DNA of 64,000 nt from Actinomyces israelii DSM 43320 (lineage in GTDB: Bacteria > Actinomycetota > Actinomycetes > Actinomycetales > Actinomycetaceae): NCBI RefSeq assembly GCF_000711965.1, contig NZ_JONS01000014.1:1-64000 (forward strand). Direction: 5' to 3'. Below the pieces are notes generated by a model. It worked only from the letters and a program-made list of their open reading frames with translations, made no database searches and was not told the origin of the DNA. The position numbers and the translations under genes are program-made. Shown piece by piece: positions 11,801 through 34,080 of the stretch. How positions within the stretch are numbered: position 1 is the first letter of the stretch; every line of letters starts with the position of its first letter.

Positions 11801-12703
11801 TCAGCGGGTCAGGACCGCGCCGCGGGTGTCGATGCCGGGCCGCAGAACCATCCAGCCGTGCCGCTCCAGGGTGAAGCGGGTCTGCTGCGCGACATTCGCC
11901 AGCACCAGCACCGTGGGTCCGGCGCCGGAGATGACCGCGGGATAGCCCTGGGCGCGCAGGGAGTCCATCACCGCCGTCGACGCGGGCAGCACGCCCCGGC
12001 GGTAGTCCTGGTGAAGGCGGTCCTCGGTGCCGGCCATGAGCAGGTCGGGGCGGCCCGCCAGCGCGAGCATGAGCACGGCGGCCCGCGAGGTGTTGAACAG
12101 GGCGTCGGCCCGCGGCACACGGTCGGGCAGGACCTCGCGCGCCTCCTCGGTGCTCAGGCGCGTCGCGGGCGGCGGCACGAGAAGGCTCACCGACAGGGAG
12201 CCGTCCACCGGCATGGGGGCGGCCCGGGGCGTGCCGTCGGCCTCCACCCAGGCCACGGTCGCCCCGCCGAAGACGGCCGGCGCGACGTTGTCCGGATGCC
12301 CCTCGAAGTCGGTGGCGATGCGGAACACCTTGCCGTCGGACAGGGCCCGGGGCTCGGAGAGCAGGCCGCGGGCGAGCATGAGACCGGCCACGGCCGCGGA
12401 GGCGGACGAGCCCATGCCCCCGCCGTGCGGAATGCGGTTGACGCAGCGCATCTCGAATCCGGCCTGCGGCGCGCCGACGGCGTCGAGACCGGCGCGCAGG
12501 GCGCGCACGACGAGGTTGTCGTCGTCGGTGGGGACGATCCCCTCCCCCACGCCCTCGACGCGCACGTGGGTGGCGCCCGCGACCGGGCGGACCTCGACCT
12601 CGTCGTAGTAGCGGAAGGCCATGCCGAAGGAGTCGAAGCCGGGCCCCATGTTGGCGGTGGTGGCGGGCACCCGGACGGCAGCCCGCTCATTGGCCAGGCG
12701 CAT
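11801..12703 (-). CDS. thrB: Homoserine kinase
   Basis: A protein of 300 residues of the GHMP kinase family that phosphorylates L-homoserine on the way to threonine. Visible motifs are the N-terminal VPATTANMGPGFDSFG, the ATP-binding PHGGGMGSSASA loop (about residue 85) and the C-terminal VISGAGPTVLV. The start is ATG 12703, 8 nt after GAGGGG and just past the hom stop; a GTG at 12709 overlapping that stop (GTGA) is possible. Hom and ThrB are thus one transcription unit. The threonine synthase gene thrC, often between or next to them, is absent. Confidence 0.95.
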   Translation of the reverse strand: MRLANERAAVRVPATTANMGPGFDSFGMAFRYYDEVEVRPVAGATHVRVEGVGEGIVPTDDDNLVVRALRAGLDAVGAPQAGFEMRCVNRIPHGGGMGSSASAAVAGLMLARGLLSEPRALSDGKVFRIATDFEGHPDNVAPAVFGGATVAWVEADGTPRAAPMPVDGSLSVSLLVPPPATRLSTEEAREVLPDRVPRADALFNTSRAAVLMLALAGRPDLLMAGTEDRLHQDYRRGVLPASTAVMDSLRAQGYPAVISGAGPTVLVLANVAQQTRFTLERHGWMVLRPGIDTRGAVLTR

Positions 12704-12705
12704 GG

Positions 12706-14040
12706 TCACTGCCCCTCGACGCGCCGGACGGAGACGACCTCGAGCACGCGGTCCTCCTCGCGCAGCGAGCTGACGGCCGCATCAAGGTGGAAGACGCCGG
12801 CGGGGTGGGTGACGATGGTGACAATGGCGTCGCGCCCGCCGACATAGGTGCTCTGGCGCACCGAGTCGATGGACACGTCGTTGTCGGCGAAGACGCCGGC
12901 GACGATCGCCAGGGAGCCGGGCTTGTCGTCCACGCGCAGCTGGACCTGGTAGCGGGTGATCGCGGAGCCGGGGCCGAGGATCGGCAGGTCGGCGTAGCTC
13001 GACTCGCGGGGGGCCTGGCCGCCGTTGACACGGTGGGACGCCGCCGCGACGACGTCGGACAGGACGGCGGAGGCCGTCGGGGCGCCACCCGCGCCCTGCC
13101 CGTAGAACATGAGGCGGCCGGCGGCCTCGGCGTCGATGAGGACGGCGTTGAAGGCCCCGTGCACGGAGGCCAGCGGGTTGTCGGCCGGCACGAGCGAGGG
13201 GTGGACTCGCACGGACACGCCGCGGGCGTGCGCGTCGTCGCGGTACTGGGCGATGGCCAGGAGCTTGATCTCGCAGCCGGAGGCGTGGGCCTCGCGTATG
13301 TCGTCGGCGGTGACGGAGCGGATGCCCTCGACCTGGACGTCGGACAGGCCGACGCGGGTGTGGAAGGACAGGGAGGCGAGAATGGCGGCCTTGGCGGCGG
13401 CGTCCAGGCCGTCGACGTCGGCGGTGGGGTCGGCCTCGGCGTAGCCGAGGGCCTGGGCGGTGGCCAGGGCCTCCTCGAAGGAGAGGCCCTTGGTGCTCAT
13501 CTCGTCCAGGATGTAGTTGGTGGTGCCGTTGACGATGCCGAGCACGCTGGTGACCCGGTCGCCGGCCATGGACTCGCGCAGGGCGTAGACGACGGGGATG
13601 GCGCCGGCGACGGCGGCCTCGTAGTAGAAGTCGGTGCCGGCGGCCGCCGCGGCGTCGTAGAGCTCGGGCCCGTGGGCGGCGATGAGGGCCTTGTTGCCGG
13701 TGATGACGCTGGCGCCGGACTTCAGGGCCGCCAGGATGAGGGTGCGGGCAGGCTCGATGCCGCCGATGAGCTCGATGACGATGTCGTTGCCGGTGGCGAC
13801 GGCGGTGGCGTCGTCCGTCAGAAGGGCGCGGGGGACGGCCGGGTCCCGGGGGGCGTCGAGGTCGCGCACGGCGATGCCGGTGATCTCCATGCGGGCGCCA
13901 CTGCGCGCGGCGAAGTCGTCGGCCTGCTCCAGCAGGAGCCGGACTACCTGGGTGCCGACGGTGCCGGAGCCGAGGACGCCGACCCGCAGCGCGGGTGCGG
14001 CGCCGGGGAGGGGGGAGGCCGGCTGGGGCTGCTCAGTCAC
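12706..14040 (-). CDS. hom: Homoserine dehydrogenase
   Basis: A protein of 444 residues that reduces aspartate semialdehyde to homoserine with NAD(P)H. Domains: Rossmann fold (VGVLGSGTVGTQVVRLL, about 25-40), catalytic domain with GTTNYIL and AEADPTADVDGLDAAAK, and a C-terminal ACT domain (about 365-440, RVDDKPGSLAIVAGVF) for allosteric feedback, as usual in Gram-positive Hom. The start chosen is GTG 14040 (VTEQPQPAS) with AAGGTGG upstream; a longer ATG form to 14124 would add 28 atypical residues. Upstream is the divergent iron-uptake operon instead of lysA. Confidence 0.95.
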   Translation of the reverse strand: MTEQPQPASPLPGAAPALRVGVLGSGTVGTQVVRLLLEQADDFAARSGARMEITGIAVRDLDAPRDPAVPRALLTDDATAVATGNDIVIELIGGIEPARTLILAALKSGASVITGNKALIAAHGPELYDAAAAAGTDFYYEAAVAGAIPVVYALRESMAGDRVTSVLGIVNGTTNYILDEMSTKGLSFEEALATAQALGYAEADPTADVDGLDAAAKAAILASLSFHTRVGLSDVQVEGIRSVTADDIREAHASGCEIKLLAIAQYRDDAHARGVSVRVHPSLVPADNPLASVHGAFNAVLIDAEAAGRLMFYGQGAGGAPTASAVLSDVVAAASHRVNGGQAPRESSYADLPILGPGSAITRYQVQLRVDDKPGSLAIVAGVFADNDVSIDSVRQSTYVGGRDAIVTIVTHPAGVFHLDAAVSSLREEDRVLEVVSVRRVEGQ

Positions 14041-17710: not shown

Positions 17711-19534
17711 ATGACCGCAGAAGCACAGACCGATACTGTTGAACCGTCGCCCACCGCCACTACGACCAACGCCGGGCACACCACCGGGCAGGCGCCCCCG
17801 GCGTCCGAGATCGCCCTCAAACAGCTCCTCGGCCCGGTTCGGCCCTCGATCGTCCTCGCCTTCTGCTGCGGGATGGCCGGGGCGGCCCTCGGCCTCCTTC
17901 CGGCGATCGGCGTCACCGCCCTGGCTCAGCAGGCTCTCGCCGCCACGCTGACCGCCCGGACGGCATGGGCCTGGGTCGCCGCCATCTCCGTCGGGCTCAT
18001 GGGCGGGCACATGATCTACCTGTGGGGGACCGGCTACGCCCACCGGGTCGAGCTGCGCTTCCGCACCGACCTGCGCCGCCGGATCGCCGTGGTGCTGGCG
18101 CGCCTGCCGCTGGGATGGCACACGGAGGAGTCCTCCGGGCGCGTGCGCTCGACCATCACCGAGGACACCGCCAAGGTCCACGCCCTCATCGCCCACTTCG
18201 GCTCCGACCTGGGAATGGCGATCGGAGCGCCCCTGTTCGGCCTGGTGTACCTGCTGACCCGCTCCTGGGTCTTCACCCTGGTCCTCCTGGTGTGGCTGGC
18301 GGCCGCCGTCGCCGTCGCCGGGGCGCTGGCCGCCCGCACCATGAAGCAGCTGACCGAGGAGTTCAACGAGTCGGAGAAGCAGCTGGCGTCCGCCGCCGTG
18401 GAGATGGCGGACGGCATCGCCGCCGTCAAGGCCTTCGGACTGAGCGGGACGCTGTTCGGCCGGTTCTCCGACGCGCTGGGCCGCTACACGAGGGCCTCGT
18501 ATAAGTGGATGCGCGGGCCGGGCCGCCCCATGGCGGTGCTCAGCGCCCTCATGGGCCCCGCCTTCATGCTCCTGCCCATTATCGCGACCGGCTGGGTCAT
18601 GGTCGGGCGCGGCCTGATGGAGCCCGTCGGGGTGCTGCCCTTCCTCCTGGTCGGGGTCGGCCTGCCCTCGGGCATGATGAACCTGGCCTCCATGGGCAAC
18701 AGCCTCATCGAGGCGCGGGACGCCGCGCAGCGCATCGGGGAGCTGCTCGCCGAGCCCGCGCTGCCCGAGCCCCAGGCCCCCGTCCCGGTGGGCCACGACG
18801 AGCGCGGCGGCGTGGACGTCGCCCTGGACCGCGTCTCCTTCCGCTACCGCCAGGACGGCCCGCTCGTCCTGGACGACGTCTCACTGGAGCTGCGGCCCGG
18901 GACGGTCACCGCCGTTGTCGGCCCCTCGGGCTCGGGCAAGTCCACCCTGGTGCGGCTCGTCGCCCGCTTCTGGGACGTGACCGGCGGGAGCGTGCGCGTG
19001 GGCGGGACCGATGTGCGCGACGCCTCCAGCCAGGACCTGCTCTCCCAGATGGTGATCGTCCTGCAGGAGGGCGGGATCCTCGCGGACACGGCCCGCGAGA
19101 ACATCCGCCTGGCCCGACCGGACGCCACCGGTGAGGAGGTGGAGGCCGCCGCCCGGGCCGCCCGCATCCACCAGCGGATCACGGCCCTGCCCCGCGGCTA
19201 CGACACCGTCCTGGGCTCCGAGGGGGCGCACCTGTCGGGCGGCGAGCGCCAGCGCATCGCCCTGGCCCGCGCCTTCCTCGCGGGCGCCCCCGTCCTCCTG
19301 CTCGACGAGGCCACCGCCCAGGCGGACCCGCACTCCGAGCGCGAGATCCAGGAGGCGCTCGCCGCCCTCGCCCGCGGCCGCACCGTCCTGGTCATCGCCC
19401 ACCGCCTGGCCACGGTCGTCGACGCCGACTCCATTGTCGTGCTCGACAGCGGGCGCGTCGTCCAGAGGGGCACGCACACCGAATTGCTCGCCGCCGGCGG
19501 GCTCTACCGCACCCTGTGGGAGGCGCAGCAGTGA
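17711..19534 (+). CDS. ABC transporter ATP-binding/permease half, YbtP/IrtA-like
   Basis: A protein of 607 residues in exporter fold: six membrane segments (about 35-310), then an ATPase with Walker A GPSGSGKST (about 411), signature LSGGERQR and Walker B VLLLDEAT. With the next gene it forms a heterodimer. Pairs of this type (IrtAB, YbtPQ) work as importers for iron-siderophores despite the exporter fold (family knowledge). The iron box upstream and the ECF operon fit this role; drug export is the alternative. The start is ATG 17711 with ACGGAG upstream, preferred over ATG 17681. It overlaps the partner by GTGA. Confidence 0.85.
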   Translation: MTAEAQTDTVEPSPTATTTNAGHTTGQAPPASEIALKQLLGPVRPSIVLAFCCGMAGAALGLLPAIGVTALAQQALAATLTARTAWAWVAAISVGLMGGHMIYLWGTGYAHRVELRFRTDLRRRIAVVLARLPLGWHTEESSGRVRSTITEDTAKVHALIAHFGSDLGMAIGAPLFGLVYLLTRSWVFTLVLLVWLAAAVAVAGALAARTMKQLTEEFNESEKQLASAAVEMADGIAAVKAFGLSGTLFGRFSDALGRYTRASYKWMRGPGRPMAVLSALMGPAFMLLPIIATGWVMVGRGLMEPVGVLPFLLVGVGLPSGMMNLASMGNSLIEARDAAQRIGELLAEPALPEPQAPVPVGHDERGGVDVALDRVSFRYRQDGPLVLDDVSLELRPGTVTAVVGPSGSGKSTLVRLVARFWDVTGGSVRVGGTDVRDASSQDLLSQMVIVLQEGGILADTARENIRLARPDATGEEVEAAARAARIHQRITALPRGYDTVLGSEGAHLSGGERQRIALARAFLAGAPVLLLDEATAQADPHSEREIQEALAALARGRTVLVIAHRLATVVDADSIVVLDSGRVVQRGTHTELLAAGGLYRTLWEAQQ

Positions 19535-21282
19535 TCACCCGACTCGACCGCTACCTGGGCGGGCACTCGCACCTGAAGGGGCTCATTGTCGCCCACGCCG
19601 TCGCCGGCGTCCTGCAGGGCGCCGCCCTGGGCCTGCTCGTCCCCTTCCTGCGGACCTTCCTGTCCGGCGGCCCCGGCGCGGGCGCCTGGCTGGCGGCGAT
19701 CATGGCGACCGCCTGCGCCTCCGCCGTCATCAGCGCCGCCGCGACGGTGCGCTCCTACAGGATCGGCTCCGACGACGTGTGCGGCGGCCTCATCCGCGCC
19801 GTCGGGCAGAAGGTCCAGCACCTGCCGCTGGGCTGGTTCGACTCGGCCGCCACCGGCCGGGTCGCCGCGGCCACGTCCACCGACATCCACGCCCTGTCCC
19901 ACCTGCCCTCGCTGGTGCTGCCGCAGATCGCCTCCATGAGCGGCTCGGCGGCGGCGATCGCCGTGGTGTCCCTGTGGCAGGAGCCGCGCATGGGCCTGGC
20001 CATGATCATCACCCTGCCCGGGTGCGTGTGGGCGCTGCGGCGGCTCAAGCGCGCGGTCGTCGCGGAGTACCGCCAGCACGAGGCCTCCACCCGGCGCCTG
20101 GCCTCACGGGTCCTGGAGCTCGCCCGCCTCCAGCCGGTCCTGCGGGCGACCGGCGCCTGCCGCGACGGCTGGGAGCCCCTGGAGCGGGACCTGACGGAGG
20201 ACCACGAGGTGGCGGGCCGGGCCATGAGCGCCGCCGCTCCCGCGGCCATCGGCTTCCACACCTTTGTGGAGGCGGGCATGGTCCTGGCCGTCGCGGTCGG
20301 GGCGTCGCTGCTGCTCGGCGCACAAGTGGACCCGGCGGTCTTCGTGGCCCTGTCGCTCATGGCGGTGCGCTTCGCCGACCCGGTGGGCATGCTCGCCTTC
20401 TACGTGTCCCCCGTGCACGAGGCGGGCGCCGCCCTGGAGTCCATCGGCTCCATCCTGGACACGCCCGTCATGGACGAGCCCGAGGCCGAGGCGGCGGCGG
20501 TGCCGGGCGCCCCCTACGACGTCGTCCTGGACCACGTGTCCTTCGGGTACGTCCCGGGGCGGGAGGTCATCCACGACGTGTGCCTCACCCTCCCGGCGGG
20601 CAGCGTGACGGCGCTCGTGGGGCCGTCCGGGTCGGGCAAGTCGACGATCGCGCGGCTCGTGGCCCGGTTCTGGGACGCGAGCTCGGGAAGCGTGAGCGTG
20701 GGCGGGGTCGATGTGCGCGCCGCGCGCGTGGAGGCGCTCATGGAGCGGGTCTCCATGGTCTTCCAGGACGTCTACCTCTTCGACACCACGATCGAGGAGA
20801 ACGTGCGCATCGGCCGTCCGGGGGCGAGCGCGGAGCAGGTCCGCGAGGCGGCCCGGCGGGCGGGCCTGGCCGAGGTGGTCGAGCGCCTGCCGCGCGGCTG
20901 GGACACGCCGGTGGGCGAGGGCGGCTCCGCCCTGTCCGGCGGCGAGCGCCAGCGCGTGGCCATTGCCCGTGCCTTCCTCAAGGACGCGCCCGTGCTGCTC
21001 CTGGACGAGGTGACCAGCGCGCTCGACGGGGCGAACGAGGCCGTGGTGACCCGGGCCATGGAGGAGCTGAGCCGGGGGCGCACGGTGCTCGTCATCGCGC
21101 ACCGGCTGAGCACGATCCGCCGGGCCGACCGGATCGTCGTGCTGGTCGACGGTGCCGTGGAGGCGGTGGGCGCGCACAATGAGCTCTACGCGGCGGGCGG
21201 CACCTACCGGCGCTTCTGGGACGACCAGGAGGCCATCGACAGGTGGAGACTCGTGGGTGCGGAGATGAGCGCGGAGAGCTGA
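19531..21282 (+). CDS. ABC transporter ATP-binding/permease half, YbtQ/IrtB-like
   Basis: A protein of 583 residues, the partner of the upstream half-transporter, with the same plan: six membrane segments, then Walker A GPSGSGKST (about 369), signature LSGGERQR, Walker B VLLLDEVTSALDG. The start is GTG 19531, overlapping the previous stop (GTGA), with GGGAGG 8 nt upstream. In the first subunit the signature-associated D-loop reads ATAQADPHSE, here TSALDGANE, so the two ATPase sites are not identical, which is usual in heterodimers. It ends the iron module; a weak hairpin follows at 21284-21306. Confidence 0.85.
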   Translation: MITRLDRYLGGHSHLKGLIVAHAVAGVLQGAALGLLVPFLRTFLSGGPGAGAWLAAIMATACASAVISAAATVRSYRIGSDDVCGGLIRAVGQKVQHLPLGWFDSAATGRVAAATSTDIHALSHLPSLVLPQIASMSGSAAAIAVVSLWQEPRMGLAMIITLPGCVWALRRLKRAVVAEYRQHEASTRRLASRVLELARLQPVLRATGACRDGWEPLERDLTEDHEVAGRAMSAAAPAAIGFHTFVEAGMVLAVAVGASLLLGAQVDPAVFVALSLMAVRFADPVGMLAFYVSPVHEAGAALESIGSILDTPVMDEPEAEAAAVPGAPYDVVLDHVSFGYVPGREVIHDVCLTLPAGSVTALVGPSGSGKSTIARLVARFWDASSGSVSVGGVDVRAARVEALMERVSMVFQDVYLFDTTIEENVRIGRPGASAEQVREAARRAGLAEVVERLPRGWDTPVGEGGSALSGGERQRVAIARAFLKDAPVLLLDEVTSALDGANEAVVTRAMEELSRGRTVLVIAHRLSTIRRADRIVVLVDGAVEAVGAHNELYAAGGTYRRFWDDQEAIDRWRLVGAEMSAES

Positions 21283-21314: not shown

Positions 21315-22438
21315 TTATGGCTGATTATCAATGACAGTCGTTGTGAGGGCGCCCATCAAGTCCTCAATCGTCCGGGGCGCGCCTAAAAGGTCCGCAACCT
21401 CGCAGAATATTGTCAAAGATTCCTCCGGGCATTGCTCCCCCACCTCAGAGCCACCATGCCGCTCCGCCGCAAGCCCCACACTGTTTAGCGAAGGCCCCAG
21501 GTCGCGCAGCGACTCCGGCGTACCCAACGAATTCGCCAGCTTGCGGTCAGTTCTCAACGACTCCACCGCCGCCTCCGCAGTCGCATCCATAAGCACCGAA
21601 AACCTCTCCGGCCTGCATCACAGCGTCGGCAGCGCCAGCGCGGAAGCCTCGAGGAAGTCCCCGTAAACCAACCATCACAGAAGCAGGATTCGCCTCGATG
21701 TCGATCCCGCCATCGAGCAGACCGGCGATCTCCGCCCGCGTCAGCCCGAAAACAATACTGCGGATAGGGGAACCACTAATCCTGGACTCGTCAAGAACTC
21801 CTCGCGCACCGACCGGGTCCGCCGGGAGCAGGGAACGGGGTCGCCCCACTTCCCGCAGCGCCGCGCCGGCCTCGGGAGTGCGCAGCTGTTCGGGAATCGT
21901 CAATCGCCAGGCGGAACGATACCTCTCGCCTTCCATGAGCTCCGACTTCCACCCCATGTTCTCGACCGCTTGATGCGGCGAGCCAGAGGGTGGGCTCACA
22001 GCACGCACAACATGAGCGAAGGAGCGCGCGGGCCACAGATCGGCAGCCTCGCGAGCAGCCTGCCCGAGCAGAGGAATCGGACCGCAGAGAACCAGGCGCC
22101 CCTCTCGAGTCGGCGAGACGAATGCGCACCTCATTGAGCGCATGAAGTACGTCTACGCGCTGCTCCTCTGCCCAGAGGGCGAACCAAAGGACTCCCGGTC
22201 TTGGCAGCTCGCGTCGTAACCAGTCGGCAGAGTCCTCATCCGCCTCACATGGTGTCCACCGCTCACGATTTCTGCGACCCCACAGGGCGGCCCTCTCCCT
22301 AAGATCATCCGCCTGGTCGCGGGACCGCACAGCGAGGAACACGGCTGTGGGCTCAGCCCCGGCCCATTCCAGGTGGTGCCGCGGGCCCGACCACGCCTGA
22401 TCTACGCTGACGGCCTCGTCGGGTTCCCGGAACGGCAT
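21315..22438 (-). pseudogene. Decayed TPR-repeat protein gene, two frameshifts
   Basis: Three minus-strand frames must be joined: 22438 to about 22140 (MPFREPDEAVSVD...), about 22140 to about 21600 (RCAFVSPTREGRLVLCGP...) and about 21596 to 21315. The last part is a tetratricopeptide repeat of the ESLRTDRKLANSLGTPESL type, which in intact relatives is repeated many times; here only one and a half copies remain. The first two parts show no family I recognise (PTAVFLAVRSRDQADDL, RAEIAGLLDGGIDIEANP). The ATG at 22438 lies one base past the stop of the upstream ATPase pseudogene, so the two were one operon. GC is lower and ATA/AAT-type codons are more common than next door, hinting at transfer. 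Confidence 0.7.
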
Positions 22439-22439
22439 G

Positions 22440-23778
22440 TCACGCCTCGTCCAAGAGCTTGTCCGGAAGAGGGCGGACGGTACCAGCCAACCCTCCCGTT
22501 GCGGCAGCACATGACATGCCCGAGAGCCTGGAGCGCCCACGCCTCGGCGGTCCGCTCGCGCGGCACCCGCAGCTGTCCGGTCTGACGCACTGCTCGCAGG
22601 ATCTCCCACTGCTCCTGCTCCTCCGTGAGCCCCGCAGCGGCGTACGAGCGCTGCTGACGCTCCTCCTGATCGATGTCGGCCGTGCCCACCGGAAGCGCGC
22701 CGTCCTTGACCAGGAGCTGACCAGGAGCGCGCAGACCAGACGGAATAGCTCTTCTGAACAGACCGCCCGAGGCGCGAATCACCCGGTCGATCCGACTCCC
22801 GAGGAGCCTCTCGAGGTCACCGCCTGGGGCGCGTCTGGCGGGCACCTGGCGCAGGAGGTCGATCCCCGCACGGCAGTCCCCGCCATCGCGCTCCTACCTT
22901 GACACTGAGAACGGGCCAGATCTGCCCCTCCCAGCCCGCAGGCTCGGCATAGACCGGAACCGTGTAGATCACGTGCATGTCGGGCAGGGCCGGCTCCGAG
23001 GCGTACCTCGAGAAGAGCGACTCAACAGAATCTCGGACCTCATCGAAGGTGGCGGTCCGTCCGCGACAGTGGTCTATGGAGTCCGCAATGAAGACCGGCG
23101 TCTTCCCGGAGGGCATGGCGGCGTCCATCGCCTGGAAGAAGGCGCGCATCTCCTTCTTGAAGACCTTCCGGTCGGGCTCCAGGGCCCTGCGACCTGAGCG
23201 CGGAGGCCCTCGTCGTCGTGCAGCGTGGCCTTGAGATCGAGGGCGACCGGGCCCGCCGACACGGCCGTGCCGGCCTCCCCCTTGATATCAAGGCGATCGG
23301 GGAAGGACCTCATCCGCGCGACGATCTTCTGCTTCGGGACGTCGGCCTCCTCGCAGCCGCCGACGAAGCCGGCCGCGAGCGCAATGAGGAGGGAGCCGCC
23401 GCCCGGAGGAAGTTCTGTGTTGAGGTAGTCCTCGATACCCAGATATACGGGGACGTAGGCGCCACGGTCGAGCTCGCGCCGCAGCCGGAGCAGCTCGGGT
23501 CGTCTTGCCCGCCCCGCCACAGCCCGAGAGCAGCCGCACCGAGCCTCCGAAGGTGACCCCGATTCTACGCCGAGCCCTGAAAACGCTGAGAAAGCGCCTC
23601 AGCGGCGGTCGGCAGCCCGGGCGGACCCGCCGACCCCGGCGGGCCGCCGTCGGCGCGTCACCGCCGCCCAGGCCCGGCGGAAGACCCTGCCCAGATCCGC
23701 CGAGTAGGGCAGGACCAGGTCGCCGCTGCGGTGAACCGGCGGCGGAGGGACCTCGAGAGATGACACTGCTGCGCTCAT
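22440..23778 (-). pseudogene. Decayed STAND/AAA-type ATPase gene, about five frameshifts
   Basis: Conserved blocks appear in order but alternate between frames. They are MSAAVSSLEVPPPPVHRSG (from 23778); the P-loop GCGGAGKTT (near 23500); ELDRGAYVPVYLGIEDYLN to DIKGEAG (23480-23200); the Walker-B-like PVFIADSIDHCRG (about 23090) and HVIYTVPVYAEPAGWEG; LLVKDGALPVGTADIDQEE with a winged-helix-like tail LRAVRQTGQL; and the end PDKLLDEA before the TGA at 22440. At least five frame changes are needed. It was a P-loop NTPase of about 440 residues, translationally linked to the TPR gene. ATPase-TPR pairs of this kind often act in signalling or phage defence; that role is inference. Confidence 0.7.
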
Positions 23779-23934: not shown

Positions 23935-25353
23935 TCAGCCCTGGAGGGCCAGGAGGTCCTCGATGGTCTGAGGGCGCACCGCCCAGCGGGCGTCGCCGTC
24001 CTCGACGGCCACGACGCCGGGCTTGGTGAGCATGTTGTAGTTCGAGGCCATGGAGTAGCCGTAGGCGCCGGTGGCGGGCACCGCCAGCAGGTCGCCGCGG
24101 GAGACGTCGTCGGGCAGGTCCACGTCCCACACGACGACGTCGCCGGACTCGCAGTGCTTGCCGACCACGCGACAGCGCACCACCGGCGCCTGCGAGACGC
24201 GGTTGGCCACGGAGGCGGTGTACCTGGCCCCGTAGAGGGCCGGGCGGATGTTGTCAGCCATGCCGCCGTCGATGGAGACGTAGCGGCGGCGAGCGCCGTC
24301 GGCGAGGAGGGCGTCCTTGACCACACCCACCCGGTAGAGGGTGAGGGTGGTGGGGCCCGCCACGGAGCGCCCCGGCTCCACGGAGACCCGCGGAACCTCG
24401 ACGCCCAGGCGGTCGCAGGCCGAGCGCACGGTGCGGGCGATAGCGCGCGCCGCCTCAACGGGGGCGGTGGGGACCGGGTCGGCGCCCGAGTAGGCGATGC
24501 CCACCCCGCCGCCCAGGTCGATCTCGGGCAGCGGCGCACCCGTCCGGGCCCCGACCGTCGCGGCGAGCCCGCAGATGATGCCGGCGGCCTCCTCGAAGGC
24601 GACGGTCCCCTGGATCTGGCTGCCGATATGGCTGTGCAGGCCGCGCAGCTCCAGGTGCGGGCAGGCCGTGATGGCGTCCACGACCTCGTCGAGCTGGCCG
24701 TCGAAGGCGCCCACGCCGAACTTCTGGTCCTCGTGCCCGGTGGAGACGTACTCGTTGCCGCCGGCGTGCACGCCGGTCTTGACCCGGATCATGACGCGGG
24801 CGGTCGTGCCCAGGCGGGCGGCGACCGACTCGATCTGGGCGACCTCGTCCAGGGAGTCGATGAAGATCCGCTCAATGCCCCGGCCGTCCCCCGCGCGCAG
24901 GGCGGTCTCGATCTCGGCGTCGAGCTTGTTGTTGCCGTGCAGGCCCACCATCGACGGCGGGGCGCCGGCGCGCAGCGCCATGGTGAGCTCGCCCAGGGAG
25001 GCCGTGTCCACCCCCATGCCGGCCCCGGTGACGGTGCGCACGACGTCGGAGCACAGAAAGGCCTTGCCCGCGTAGTAGGCGTCGCCGCCGCTCATGCCGT
25101 AGCCGTCCCAGAACTCCTCGGCCATGGCGGTGGCCCACACCCGGGCGCGCCCGCGCAGGTCGGCGCGGTCCATGACGAAGACGGGGGTGGCGAAGTCCGC
25201 GGCGATGTCGGTCAGGGCCATCCCGCCGACCTCGAGGACCCCGTCGTCGCGGCGCCGCGCGGACCACGGCCACAGGTCGGGGCGCTCGGGGGGCTCGGGG
25301 CAGACCAGGGTGCCCGGAGCCGCCTCACCGGCGGGAACGGTCGCAGCGGTCAT
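23935..25353 (-). CDS. lysA: Diaminopimelate decarboxylase
   Basis: A PLP enzyme of 472 residues (alanine-racemase-fold barrel) that makes lysine from meso-diaminopimelate. The PLP lysine is in AYYAGKAFLC (about residue 96). HSHIGSQI, the glycine-rich DLGGGVGIAYSG and EPGRSVAG bind the cofactor phosphate. The C-terminal part carries CESGD and the GAYGYSMASNYN substrate motif. The start is ATG 25353 with AAGGAGG upstream. It follows argS on the same strand, as in most actinobacteria, but hom does not follow: decayed genes and the iron module intervene. Confidence 0.96.
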   Translation of the reverse strand: MTAATVPAGEAAPGTLVCPEPPERPDLWPWSARRRDDGVLEVGGMALTDIAADFATPVFVMDRADLRGRARVWATAMAEEFWDGYGMSGGDAYYAGKAFLCSDVVRTVTGAGMGVDTASLGELTMALRAGAPPSMVGLHGNNKLDAEIETALRAGDGRGIERIFIDSLDEVAQIESVAARLGTTARVMIRVKTGVHAGGNEYVSTGHEDQKFGVGAFDGQLDEVVDAITACPHLELRGLHSHIGSQIQGTVAFEEAAGIICGLAATVGARTGAPLPEIDLGGGVGIAYSGADPVPTAPVEAARAIARTVRSACDRLGVEVPRVSVEPGRSVAGPTTLTLYRVGVVKDALLADGARRRYVSIDGGMADNIRPALYGARYTASVANRVSQAPVVRCRVVGKHCESGDVVVWDVDLPDDVSRGDLLAVPATGAYGYSMASNYNMLTKPGVVAVEDGDARWAVRPQTIEDLLALQG

Positions 25354-32982: not shown

Positions 32983-34080
32983 TCAGCCGCGCTGCATGGC
33001 GTCATGAACCTCCCCGATCAGCTCCTCGAGGATGTCCTCAAGGAAGACGACGCCGATGGTGACGCCCTCGGGGTCCTCCACCCGCCCCAGGTGGGCGCCG
33101 GTCCGCTGCATGGCGGCGAGCACGTCCTCGACCTCGTCGCCGGCGTGCACGGGCACGAGCGCGCGGGCGTGCCAGGACGGTATCGGCTCGCTGCGCTGGG
33201 CCTCGGTGGCGTACAGGATGTCCTTGAGGTGGACGTAGCCGGAGATGACGATCGGGCCGTCGCGCGTCTCGCCCTCACCGGCCCCACCGGCGTCGGCGGC
33301 CTCGCCGCCCGCTCCCCCGCCCACGAGCGGGAAGCGGGAGAAGCCGGTGGCGGCGACGGCCTGCTCGACGTCCTCGGGCGTGCAGTCCCCGGGCAGGGTG
33401 ACCAGGGAGTCCAGGGGCACCATGACACTGCCCGCGGTCTCCTCGGAGAACTCCAGGGCGCCGGTGAGCAGACCCGTGTCGTCCTCCAGGACGCCCTCGG
33501 CGGTGGACCGCTCGACGATCGAGGCGACCTCGGCCGCGTTGAAGGCAGCCGCGACCTCCTCCCTGGGCTCCAGGCCCATCAGGTGCAGCGTCCAGTTGGC
33601 GAAGCCGTTGAGCGCGGTGATCACGGGGCCGAAGACGTGGGAGACCCACACCAGGGGCGGGGCGAGCAGCCGCACCGCCTTCTCGGGCGCGGCGATCGAC
33701 ATGTTCTTGGGGACCATCTCCCCGCAGACCACGTGGACGTAGACGACCAGGACCAGGGCGATGACGACGGCCACCGCGTGCGCCCCGGCGTCGCCGATGC
33801 CGATCCTGGCCAGCAGGGGCGTCAGCGCGTGCGCGATGGCCGGCTCGGCGACGACGCCCAGGCCCGTCGAGCACACGGTGACGCCGAGCTGGGCGGTGGC
33901 GAGCATCCGCGAGATGTGCTGGAGGGCCCACAGAGCGGTGGCGGCCCGGGCGTCGCCGGCGGCAGCGAGCGGCTCGAGCTGGGAGCGGCGGCAGGAGGTG
34001 ACGGCGAACTCGGCGCTGACGAAGAAGGCGTTGCCCGCCAGCAGCGCCACGGTGATGATCAGGGCGACCGGGGTGCTCAT
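32983..34080 (-). CDS. CNNM/CBS-domain membrane protein (hemolysin C/CorC family), second of pair
   Basis: A protein of 365 residues: an N-terminal CNNM domain with about four membrane helices (ALIITVALLAGNAFFVSAEF, then CGEMVPKN), then a CBS pair (about 215-345) with an inserted Gly/Ala-rich loop. It lacks the C-terminal CorC domain of its neighbour. Such proteins transport or sense divalent cations such as Mg2+ (family knowledge). The ATG overlaps the stop of the upstream paralogue (ATGA), so the two probably form a heterodimer. Confidence 0.88.
   Translation of the reverse strand: MSTPVALIITVALLAGNAFFVSAEFAVTSCRRSQLEPLAAAGDARAATALWALQHISRMLATAQLGVTVCSTGLGVVAEPAIAHALTPLLARIGIGDAGAHAVAVVIALVLVVYVHVVCGEMVPKNMSIAAPEKAVRLLAPPLVWVSHVFGPVITALNGFANWTLHLMGLEPREEVAAAFNAAEVASIVERSTAEGVLEDDTGLLTGALEFSEETAGSVMVPLDSLVTLPGDCTPEDVEQAVAATGFSRFPLVGGGAGGEAADAGGAGEGETRDGPIVISGYVHLKDILYATEAQRSEPIPSWHARALVPVHAGDEVEDVLAAMQRTGAHLGRVEDPEGVTIGVVFLEDILEELIGEVHDAMQRG

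Follow-up and report, generated by a model that had tools for sequence, protein, structure and literature searches.

STAND-type switches coupled to TPR (tetratricopeptide repeat) or WD40 sensors are already known. They belong to the STAND NTPases and NLR-like receptors, such as MalT, Apaf-1/CED-4, plant NLRs, and the bacterial Avs and bNACHT. Here we describe a locus from Actinomyces israelii DSM 43320 (NCBI RefSeq assembly GCF_000711965.1, contig NZ_JONS01000014.1, positions 1 to 64,000 of the forward strand; this whole 64,000-nucleotide stretch is called the window) that holds the remains of two adjacent genes downstream of lysA: gene A, encoding a P-loop ATPase, and gene B, encoding a TPR protein. 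We give a probability of about 60% to the reading that this locus is what remains, as pseudogenes, of a cassette that in its intact state acts as a split sensor-switch of the NLR/STAND-like kind. The window itself only carries a wreck; the interest lies in its intact relatives.

By fold comparison, the Actinomyces pair resembles the STAND/NLR-like receptors in a predicted P-loop NTPase with a winged-helix-like tail. Further likenesses are a TPR or WD40 array as the presumed sensor and a TIR-fused relative in Calothrix. In contrast to these receptors, switch and sensor of the Actinomyces system are two polypeptides, no effector domain was found on either, and no STAND model of Pfam scores above its cut-off for gene A. 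The pair is NLR-like in its working only: effector, switch, and sensor do not sit in one polypeptide. As far as the part of PMC4986451 consulted goes, the fungal NLRs of the HET-E/HET-D class share near-identical repeats, a variable number of units, and change on concave TPR contact positions. However, the fungal receptors are single polypeptides with an effector domain, whereas the Actinomyces system is split and bacterial, and selection on it is only suggested. The MoxR-vWA ternary conflict systems (VMAP, iSTAND; PMC7159879, likewise consulted in part) are approached by a gene A relative of Nostoc C057, which lies in the place expected for the vWA component. The Actinomyces cassette differs from them in being a near-clean unit (seven of nine comparisons) without a MoxR or vWA gene. 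Gene A of Actinomyces also lies far below the cut-off of the Sll1717 family (NF047389), and no match to the KAP NTPases (PF07693) is listed for it. PDC-S20 and mads_8 are not matched by the Actinomyces proteins; their likeness is limited to cyanobacterial gene A relatives and was judged from gene A alone.

The first-pass annotation of the window had described a ruined ATPase/TPR operon, with conserved blocks in alternating frames, about seven frameshifts, and clean flanking genes. We aligned this region with a frameshift-tolerant script against the intact pair of a relative, genome G033. The gene A remnant corresponds to residues 58-426 of a 426-amino acid (aa) P-loop ATPase (286 of 366 aligned residues identical, 78%; six frameshifts), and the gene B remnant to residues 1-354 of a 774-aa TPR protein (214 of 352, 61%; two frameshifts). 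Both remnants lie as minus-strand protein fragments in alternating frames between lysA and a convergent ABC transporter gene, and the Walker A and Walker B blocks were found where they had been placed. The frameshifted state was thus confirmed; the count is eight rather than seven at the gap penalty used, on which it depends. No in-frame stop occurs in either alignment. With the same aligner, three control alignments against intact orthologues were free of frameshifts, and shuffling the DNA three times gave scores of 34-55, compared to 1363 for the real alignment. The flanks are indeed clean, with lysA and two ABC transporter genes as single open frames. Two losses go beyond the earlier description: gene A lacks its start codon and the first 57 residues, and gene B ends after about one TPR unit, the remaining array being gone. 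No further copy of gene A was found in this genome at E≤0.001 with the gene A profiles.

Some features of the locus would fit sequencing or assembly errors in genes that are intact in the organism. The assembly is a draft of 102 contigs, eight frameshifts without any in-frame stop are unusual for old decay, and near-identical repeats break assemblies at this place, with three other drafts ending in or at the edge of the array. We therefore polarised substitutions against nine other intact gene A sequences. On the window branch, 18, 25, and 13 substitutions fall on codon positions 1, 2, and 3 (267, 283, and 98 informative sites; 0.067, 0.088, and 0.133). The branch of the intact sister G033 has 9, 4, and 26 (258, 262, and 111 sites; 0.035, 0.015, and 0.234), and four control branches range from 0.025-0.029, 0.006-0.015, and 0.047-0.140, respectively. 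The window also breaks 17 of 157 otherwise invariant gene A residues, compared to 0-11 (of 157-168) in ten intact copies, the highest of which are G029 and G024 with 11 each. Sequencing errors would account neither for the 25 second-position substitutions, against four on the sister branch, nor for the missing first 57 residues and most of the array, and the flanks are clean. Because of the codon-position pattern and the two truncations we reject this explanation, which we consider hardly credible. The gene pair is truly decayed, and we are almost certain that the window holds a ruined two-gene cassette.

Intact versions in relatives had also been anticipated, and they exist. A search with one 98-residue piece matched 12 of 49 genomes of the genus, and a profile search of the family matched 13 of 213 genomes, all of this genus (one of 36 genera). 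Of the 49 genus genomes, 13 thus carry the pair or traces of it, ten with intact gene A (422-444 aa) and three with wrecks (the window, G023, and G043). Six of these ten have a complete gene B (458-776 aa); in three it runs into a contig end, and in one (G029) it is reduced to an 83-aa stub. In the nine genomes in which gene B accompanies an intact gene A, it starts 1-10 nt after gene A. The check proposed in the first-pass annotation, a frameshift-tolerant reconstruction together with intact homologues and their neighbours, thus yielded eight frameshifts, ten intact gene A copies, and a fixed slot: each of the 13 carriers has the pair or its remnant downstream of lysA. Farther along, hom-thrB follows in nine; the examined stretch ends earlier in the other four. 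The 36 genomes without the pair have lysA and hom in one stretch with variable content between them, the lysA of G046 being a weak partial match only. When four carriers were compared with nine genomes lacking the pair, seven of the nine empty sites were near-clean (G022, G030, G017, G001, G004, G034, and G010): homology breaks and resumes near the ends of the pair, with no more than about 130 bp between.

The carriers are scattered over the lysA/hom/thrB tree. In the ten genomes with intact gene A, gene A and LysA identities are correlated (Mantel r 0.81; 1 of 2000 permutations as high). We read this as a probably old residence in the genus with many losses; exchange at the same slot may also have occurred. 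The constant place beside lysA and this vertical signal would suit a TPR-ATPase pair with a housekeeping or regulatory role (signalling of the MalT/AfsR type or an assembly chaperone) that is tied to the aspartate-family genes lysA and hom-thrB and whose loss is neutral reduction. But the 36 genomes without the pair keep lysA, hom, and thrB, and the G+C content of gene A is low (0.60-0.68, compared to 0.71-0.75 for lysA in six genomes; gene B is also poorer than lysA). With the further points given below, we regard such a role as unlikely. The patchy presence and the atypical composition could as well reflect a selfish or addiction-type module, kept by strain-to-strain exchange at one slot without any service to the cell. 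In G045, lysA and gene B have the same final 29 bp, including the stop (L018, reverse strand), and this perfect direct repeat could mediate both gain and loss. It was found in only one of six genomes tested, however, and the vertical signal, the lack of a toxin domain in the Pfam scan, the lack of matches in phage records and scanned viral contigs, and the absence of Actinomyces from the eight matched plasmid records (see below) also speak against such a module, which seems quite improbable to us. The G045 repeat offers a possible route of clean loss or capture; the array of this genome ends without a degenerate last unit.

Gene A carries the Walker A motif GYRGAGKTT and the Walker B motif PVF(I/V)VDS(I/L)(D/E)H in nine aligned intact copies and is thereby a P-loop NTPase; the Walker A lysine and one Walker B aspartate are invariant in 13 diverse sequences. 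No match above a curated cut-off was obtained in Pfam or NCBIfam. In the two copies scanned, AAA_16 (23.7 of 32.6), nSTAND_NTPase5 (15.4-15.8 of 34), and AAA_22 stayed below threshold, and the P-loop ATPase Sll1717 (NF047389) matched weakly (E 0.00029 and 0.029). A sequence search of solved structures gave nothing significant (best E 0.52). The structure was predicted from five sequences, with a mean predicted local distance difference test score (pLDDT) of 65.6 and a predicted template modelling score (pTM) of 0.50, i.e., a weak model. With Foldseek, its best matches were ORC2, Cdc6, BrxC, and Apaf-1 (E 8e-4 to 1e-2), with template modelling (TM) scores of 0.30 or below among the 50 matches listed. 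With VIA-align, in which best Z values of 7-8 are common without kinship, the archaeal SSO1545 ATPase 2fna came first (Z 10.5, root-mean-square deviation 7.5, 273 aligned), and further matches were 2qen, ORC/Cdc6, TnsC, plant NLRs, CED-4, MalT, and RdrA (ORC, NLR, and CED-4 at Z of about 9). At the C-terminus, the model has a β-hairpin after helices, resembling a winged-helix-like tail. Because of the consistent ORC/STAND company in the fold matches and this tail, we assign gene A with moderate confidence as a putative STAND/ORC-type switch. The STAND-like label of the first-pass annotation is therefore upheld by fold comparison from a model of pLDDT 65.6 and not by any Pfam STAND model at cut-off. 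Its suspicion of a poorly described system holds within the libraries searched: gene A is without a curated match in Pfam/NCBIfam, its PADLOC results are unconvincing, and for gene B the convincing matches are generic TPR models only.

In the model of gene B (mean pLDDT 83), an alternating α/β domain (residues about 1-145) is followed by a low-confidence stretch and then by helical repeats. No Walker A motif is evident in the α/β domain by inspection of the sequence, and the idea that it is a degenerate duplicate of gene A was dropped after a profile comparison found nothing (probability 0.4%). Among the 50 Foldseek matches listed, TPR proteins predominate, and the STAND-TPR protein 6mfv has the longest alignment (614 columns including gaps; E 2.1e-5, TM 0.27). 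VIA-align gave TPR matches of the kinesin light chain (KLC) type and also the Podospora repeat structure 4y6c; these matches are taken up by the TPR part, so that the fold of the α/β domain was hardly probed. Generic TPR models are the sole convincing matches in Pfam, NCBIfam, and PADLOC, and the Cas2 match of PADLOC to gene B of G033 (E 1.5e-5) has no stretch that passes by itself. The repeat part gives sub-threshold matches to the TPR models of AfsR and HaaT, which would again suit the regulatory alternative. However, Pfam shows no DNA-binding domain in gene B with a stretch passing by itself, and the repeat homogenisation and contact-position change described in the following suit variable recognition better.

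The array of gene B has a period of 47 residues. After removal of units less than 60% identical to the array consensus (G033 1 of 10, G032 1 of 10, G045 0 of 9, G012 1 of 7, G003 1 of 3, and G024 3 of 10), the DNA identity between units of the same array is 0.925 in G033, 0.895 in G032, 0.740 in G045, 0.859 in G012, 0.922 in G003, and 0.724 in G024, compared to 0.59-0.70 between species. Judged by these sequences, the TPR arrays undergo concerted evolution, which is strong in four of the six. A repeat identity of more than 85% over at least 100 aa was reached in one array, that of G033 (9 core units, 89% at the aa level); the values were 84% for G032, 78% for G012, 69% for G045, and 66% for G024, while G003 has 92% over 94 aa only. 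Three draft contigs (L015, L017, and L019) stop within the TPR array or at its edge, which would be expected if short-read assembly fails on near-identical repeats.

Positions 2, 5, 9, 12, 13, 33, and 34 of a TPR are given as variable concave-face positions in the part of PMC1261162 consulted. We took the register from the Pfam TPR_2 match (residue 693 at profile position 4), so that the unit position equals the TPR position plus 14, and examined five arrays (9, 9, 9, 6, and 9 units), with the degenerate last unit removed where present and G003 left out. The five helix-A contact positions, a set applied after the entropy table had been seen, have a mean within-array entropy of 1.00, compared to 0.50 overall. 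This value was reached by 35 of 20000 random quintets and by 48 of 20000 when the draws were confined to helix A; none of the 32 slid placements gives a higher one. The ratio of nonsynonymous to synonymous change (pN/pS) within the five arrays, with one genome per species, is 1.27 at the five concave positions, or 1.06 with synonymous change pooled over the unit; elsewhere it is 0.37 (rest of helix A), 0.43 (helix B), and 0.49 (remainder). This suggests diversifying selection at these five positions only.

Outside the genus, tblastn with gene A found eight plasmid records (23-28% identity over at least 80% of the length), all from cyanobacteria or Acidisarcina and none from Actinomyces; a cyanobacterial query found nine. 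This location on plasmids is a further point against a housekeeping role. In Acidisarcina, an unannotated frame with the gene B-type domain runs into an annotated TPR gene directly after gene A; in the plasmids, tblastn with this domain found only itself. Seven cyanobacterial records from Nostoc, Calothrix, and Acaryochloris have a gene B-like domain, with gene A upstream in the six neighbourhoods read and, from the coordinates, probably also in the seventh. Their array consists of WD40 repeats by Pfam (one protein scanned) and by annotation in two others; the remaining annotations are ribosome assembly protein 4 in three (including the scanned protein) and hypothetical protein in two. In Calothrix, gene A and the WD40 gene are separated by a gene A relative that carries a TIR fusion (TIR_2, E 1.5e-33). 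In Nostoc C057, a protein annotated as SAV_2336-related ends in a gene A relative (KAP_NTPase 34.4, cut-off 20); its gene comes after one for MoxR and one for VMAP-C/VMAP-M1 (the latter at E 1e-33 and 2e-18). Pfam reports no vWA domain in this protein. The locus looks like a VMAP conflict operon as described in the part of PMC7159879 consulted. KAP NTPase (PF07693) also scores above cut-off in the relative of Acaryochloris, and the PADLOC candidates PDC-S20 and mads_8 are weakly matched by two cyanobacterial gene A relatives (E 9e-7 to 6e-3).

Profile comparison linked the Actinomyces-type gene B domain to that of Acidisarcina and G103 (97.5%, E 5e-12), and these two together to the cyanobacterial domain (80%, E 1.4e-5, 46 columns). 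Within the actinobacteria, the relatives outside the genus are one distant metagenome-assembled genome (MAG) and G103. In both, gene B adjoins gene A, overlapping or abutting it. A search of a phylum sample matched two of 396 genomes, including the window's own. With a wider profile, short matches to the P-loop region appeared in six other genomes of 394, and these were not counted as relatives. A second match in G103 (contig 216) showed no gene B on a brief look, and the contig ends shortly after it. In the distant MAG (L029 1219-3602), the pair lies between genes that read by eye as miaA and dapF, the latter a diaminopimelate gene. For the proposed tie to the aspartate family, this neighbour may be a coincidence or hint at a link. 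A recent arrival from a phage or plasmid was rejected: there was no match in the phage records or in the one pattern scan of viral contigs, and the plasmid matches are at 23-28% in cyanobacteria and Acidisarcina only. In the titles and abstract openings of the literature searched, we found no account naming the pair, some of the queries being too broad.

Because of the anatomy, the conserved order of the two genes, and the variation on the TPR contact face, we are fairly confident that gene B acts as the sensor and gene A as the switch, as far as sequences can tell. Gene A would be an ATP-driven switch, in which a winged-helix-like tail follows the P-loop NTPase at the C-terminus. Gene B, encoded directly after it, would be the receptor with its α/β domain and superhelical TPR array. 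The α/β domain may dock on gene A, and the concave TPR face may recognise the target, most likely a protein of a phage or another invader, or a non-self cell component. Recognition would free gene A for nucleotide exchange and oligomerisation, and the assembly would trigger a death or arrest response via a separate partner, the presumed effector. That the purpose is defence or non-self recognition is argued by analogy, because of the TIR and VMAP company of the relatives and the similarity to fungal high-conservation repeat receptors; we give it an even chance. More tentatively, and with somewhat less than even confidence, we propose that the pair represents an undescribed two-polypeptide NLR-like class. 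In this class, a conserved STAND-type switch would be paired with a separate receptor that combines a docking domain and an exchangeable array under concerted evolution, made of TPRs in Actinomyces and Acidisarcina and of WD40 repeats in cyanobacteria. The system would serve phage defence or kin/non-self recognition and be repeatedly lost as a near-clean cassette.

Several observations weigh against a split sensor-switch, beginning with the weak model and low fold scores of gene A and the late choice of the five contact positions, as given above. No Pfam STAND model reaches its cut-off in the two gene A copies scanned, and PADLOC 2.0.0 gave no convincing gene A match (none for G033; MkoA at E 0.016 for G032). 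Pfam finds no effector domain in the Actinomyces cassette, and the near-clean presence or absence of two genes argues against a third linked gene in Actinomyces. Two of the nine empty-site comparisons (G018 and G038) are not clean and show other content. The overall within-array pN/pS is 0.52, below 1, and TPR positions 33 and 34, corresponding to unit positions 47 and 1, have entropies of 0.66 and 0.13 without excess. The direct profile comparison between the gene B domains of Actinomyces and cyanobacteria is not significant (about 6%), leaving the two-sequence bridge as the only link. Neither 50,697 phage records nor a single pattern scan of viral contigs yielded a match to the pair, which sits in a fixed slot between housekeeping genes and not in a recognised defence island. 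Finally, G029 keeps gene A without gene B beyond the 83-aa stub (L022 8044-8295). Its gene A, which breaks 11 of 168 otherwise invariant residues, is perhaps in early decay after partner loss; but G024, with both genes intact, also breaks 11.

If a sensor-switch of this kind exists, switch and sensor of NLR-like systems would be separable in nature and the sensor exchangeable by recombination, so that its specificity could be examined separately from the ATPase. Homogenised TPR arrays that change at contact positions would then parallel, in bacteria, the non-self receptors of fungi. The genus has natural pairs of close relatives with and without the cassette (e.g., G003/G004). The features of the window are collected in Table 1.

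Table 1. Features of the locus and its surroundings (positions in the window)
Feature	Position	Strand	Evidence or remark
Gene A remnant, putative P-loop STAND/ORC-type ATPase	22443..23563	-	Frameshift-tolerant alignment, protein and profile matches, relaxed constraint
Walker A block of gene A remnant, GCGGAGKTT	23498..23524	-	GYRGAGKTT in nine aligned intact copies
Walker B block of gene A remnant, PVFIADSIDH	23069..23098	-	PVF(I/V)VDS(I/L)(D/E)H in nine aligned intact copies
Gene B remnant: N-terminal α/β domain, linker, about one TPR unit	21375..22438	-	Alignment, domain anatomy
Open fragment with the surviving gene B TPR unit (LGTPESLRDLGPSLNSVG...), stop just before the convergent ABC transporter gene	21315..21596	-	
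lysA (diaminopimelate decarboxylase), intact	23935..25353	-	Upstream border of the slot in 13/13 carriers of the pair or traces
ABC transporter gene, intact, convergent with the remnant	19516..21282	+	Clean flank
hom (homoserine dehydrogenase)	12709..14010	-	Far border of the lysA-hom slot in this genome
thrB	11807-12709		

In G023, the slot with the wrecked pair also contains a toxin-antitoxin-like pair, with small PIN-like and antitoxin-like genes that were recognised by eye (L024 6545-7293) and may be read as such. The lysA gene of the window is 90% identical to that of G016, which lies in the same place, and about 57% identical to the best matches elsewhere in the genus; this looks like an in-place replacement common to the two genomes. 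A selenocysteine tRNA gene is predicted at 33499-33580 of the window.

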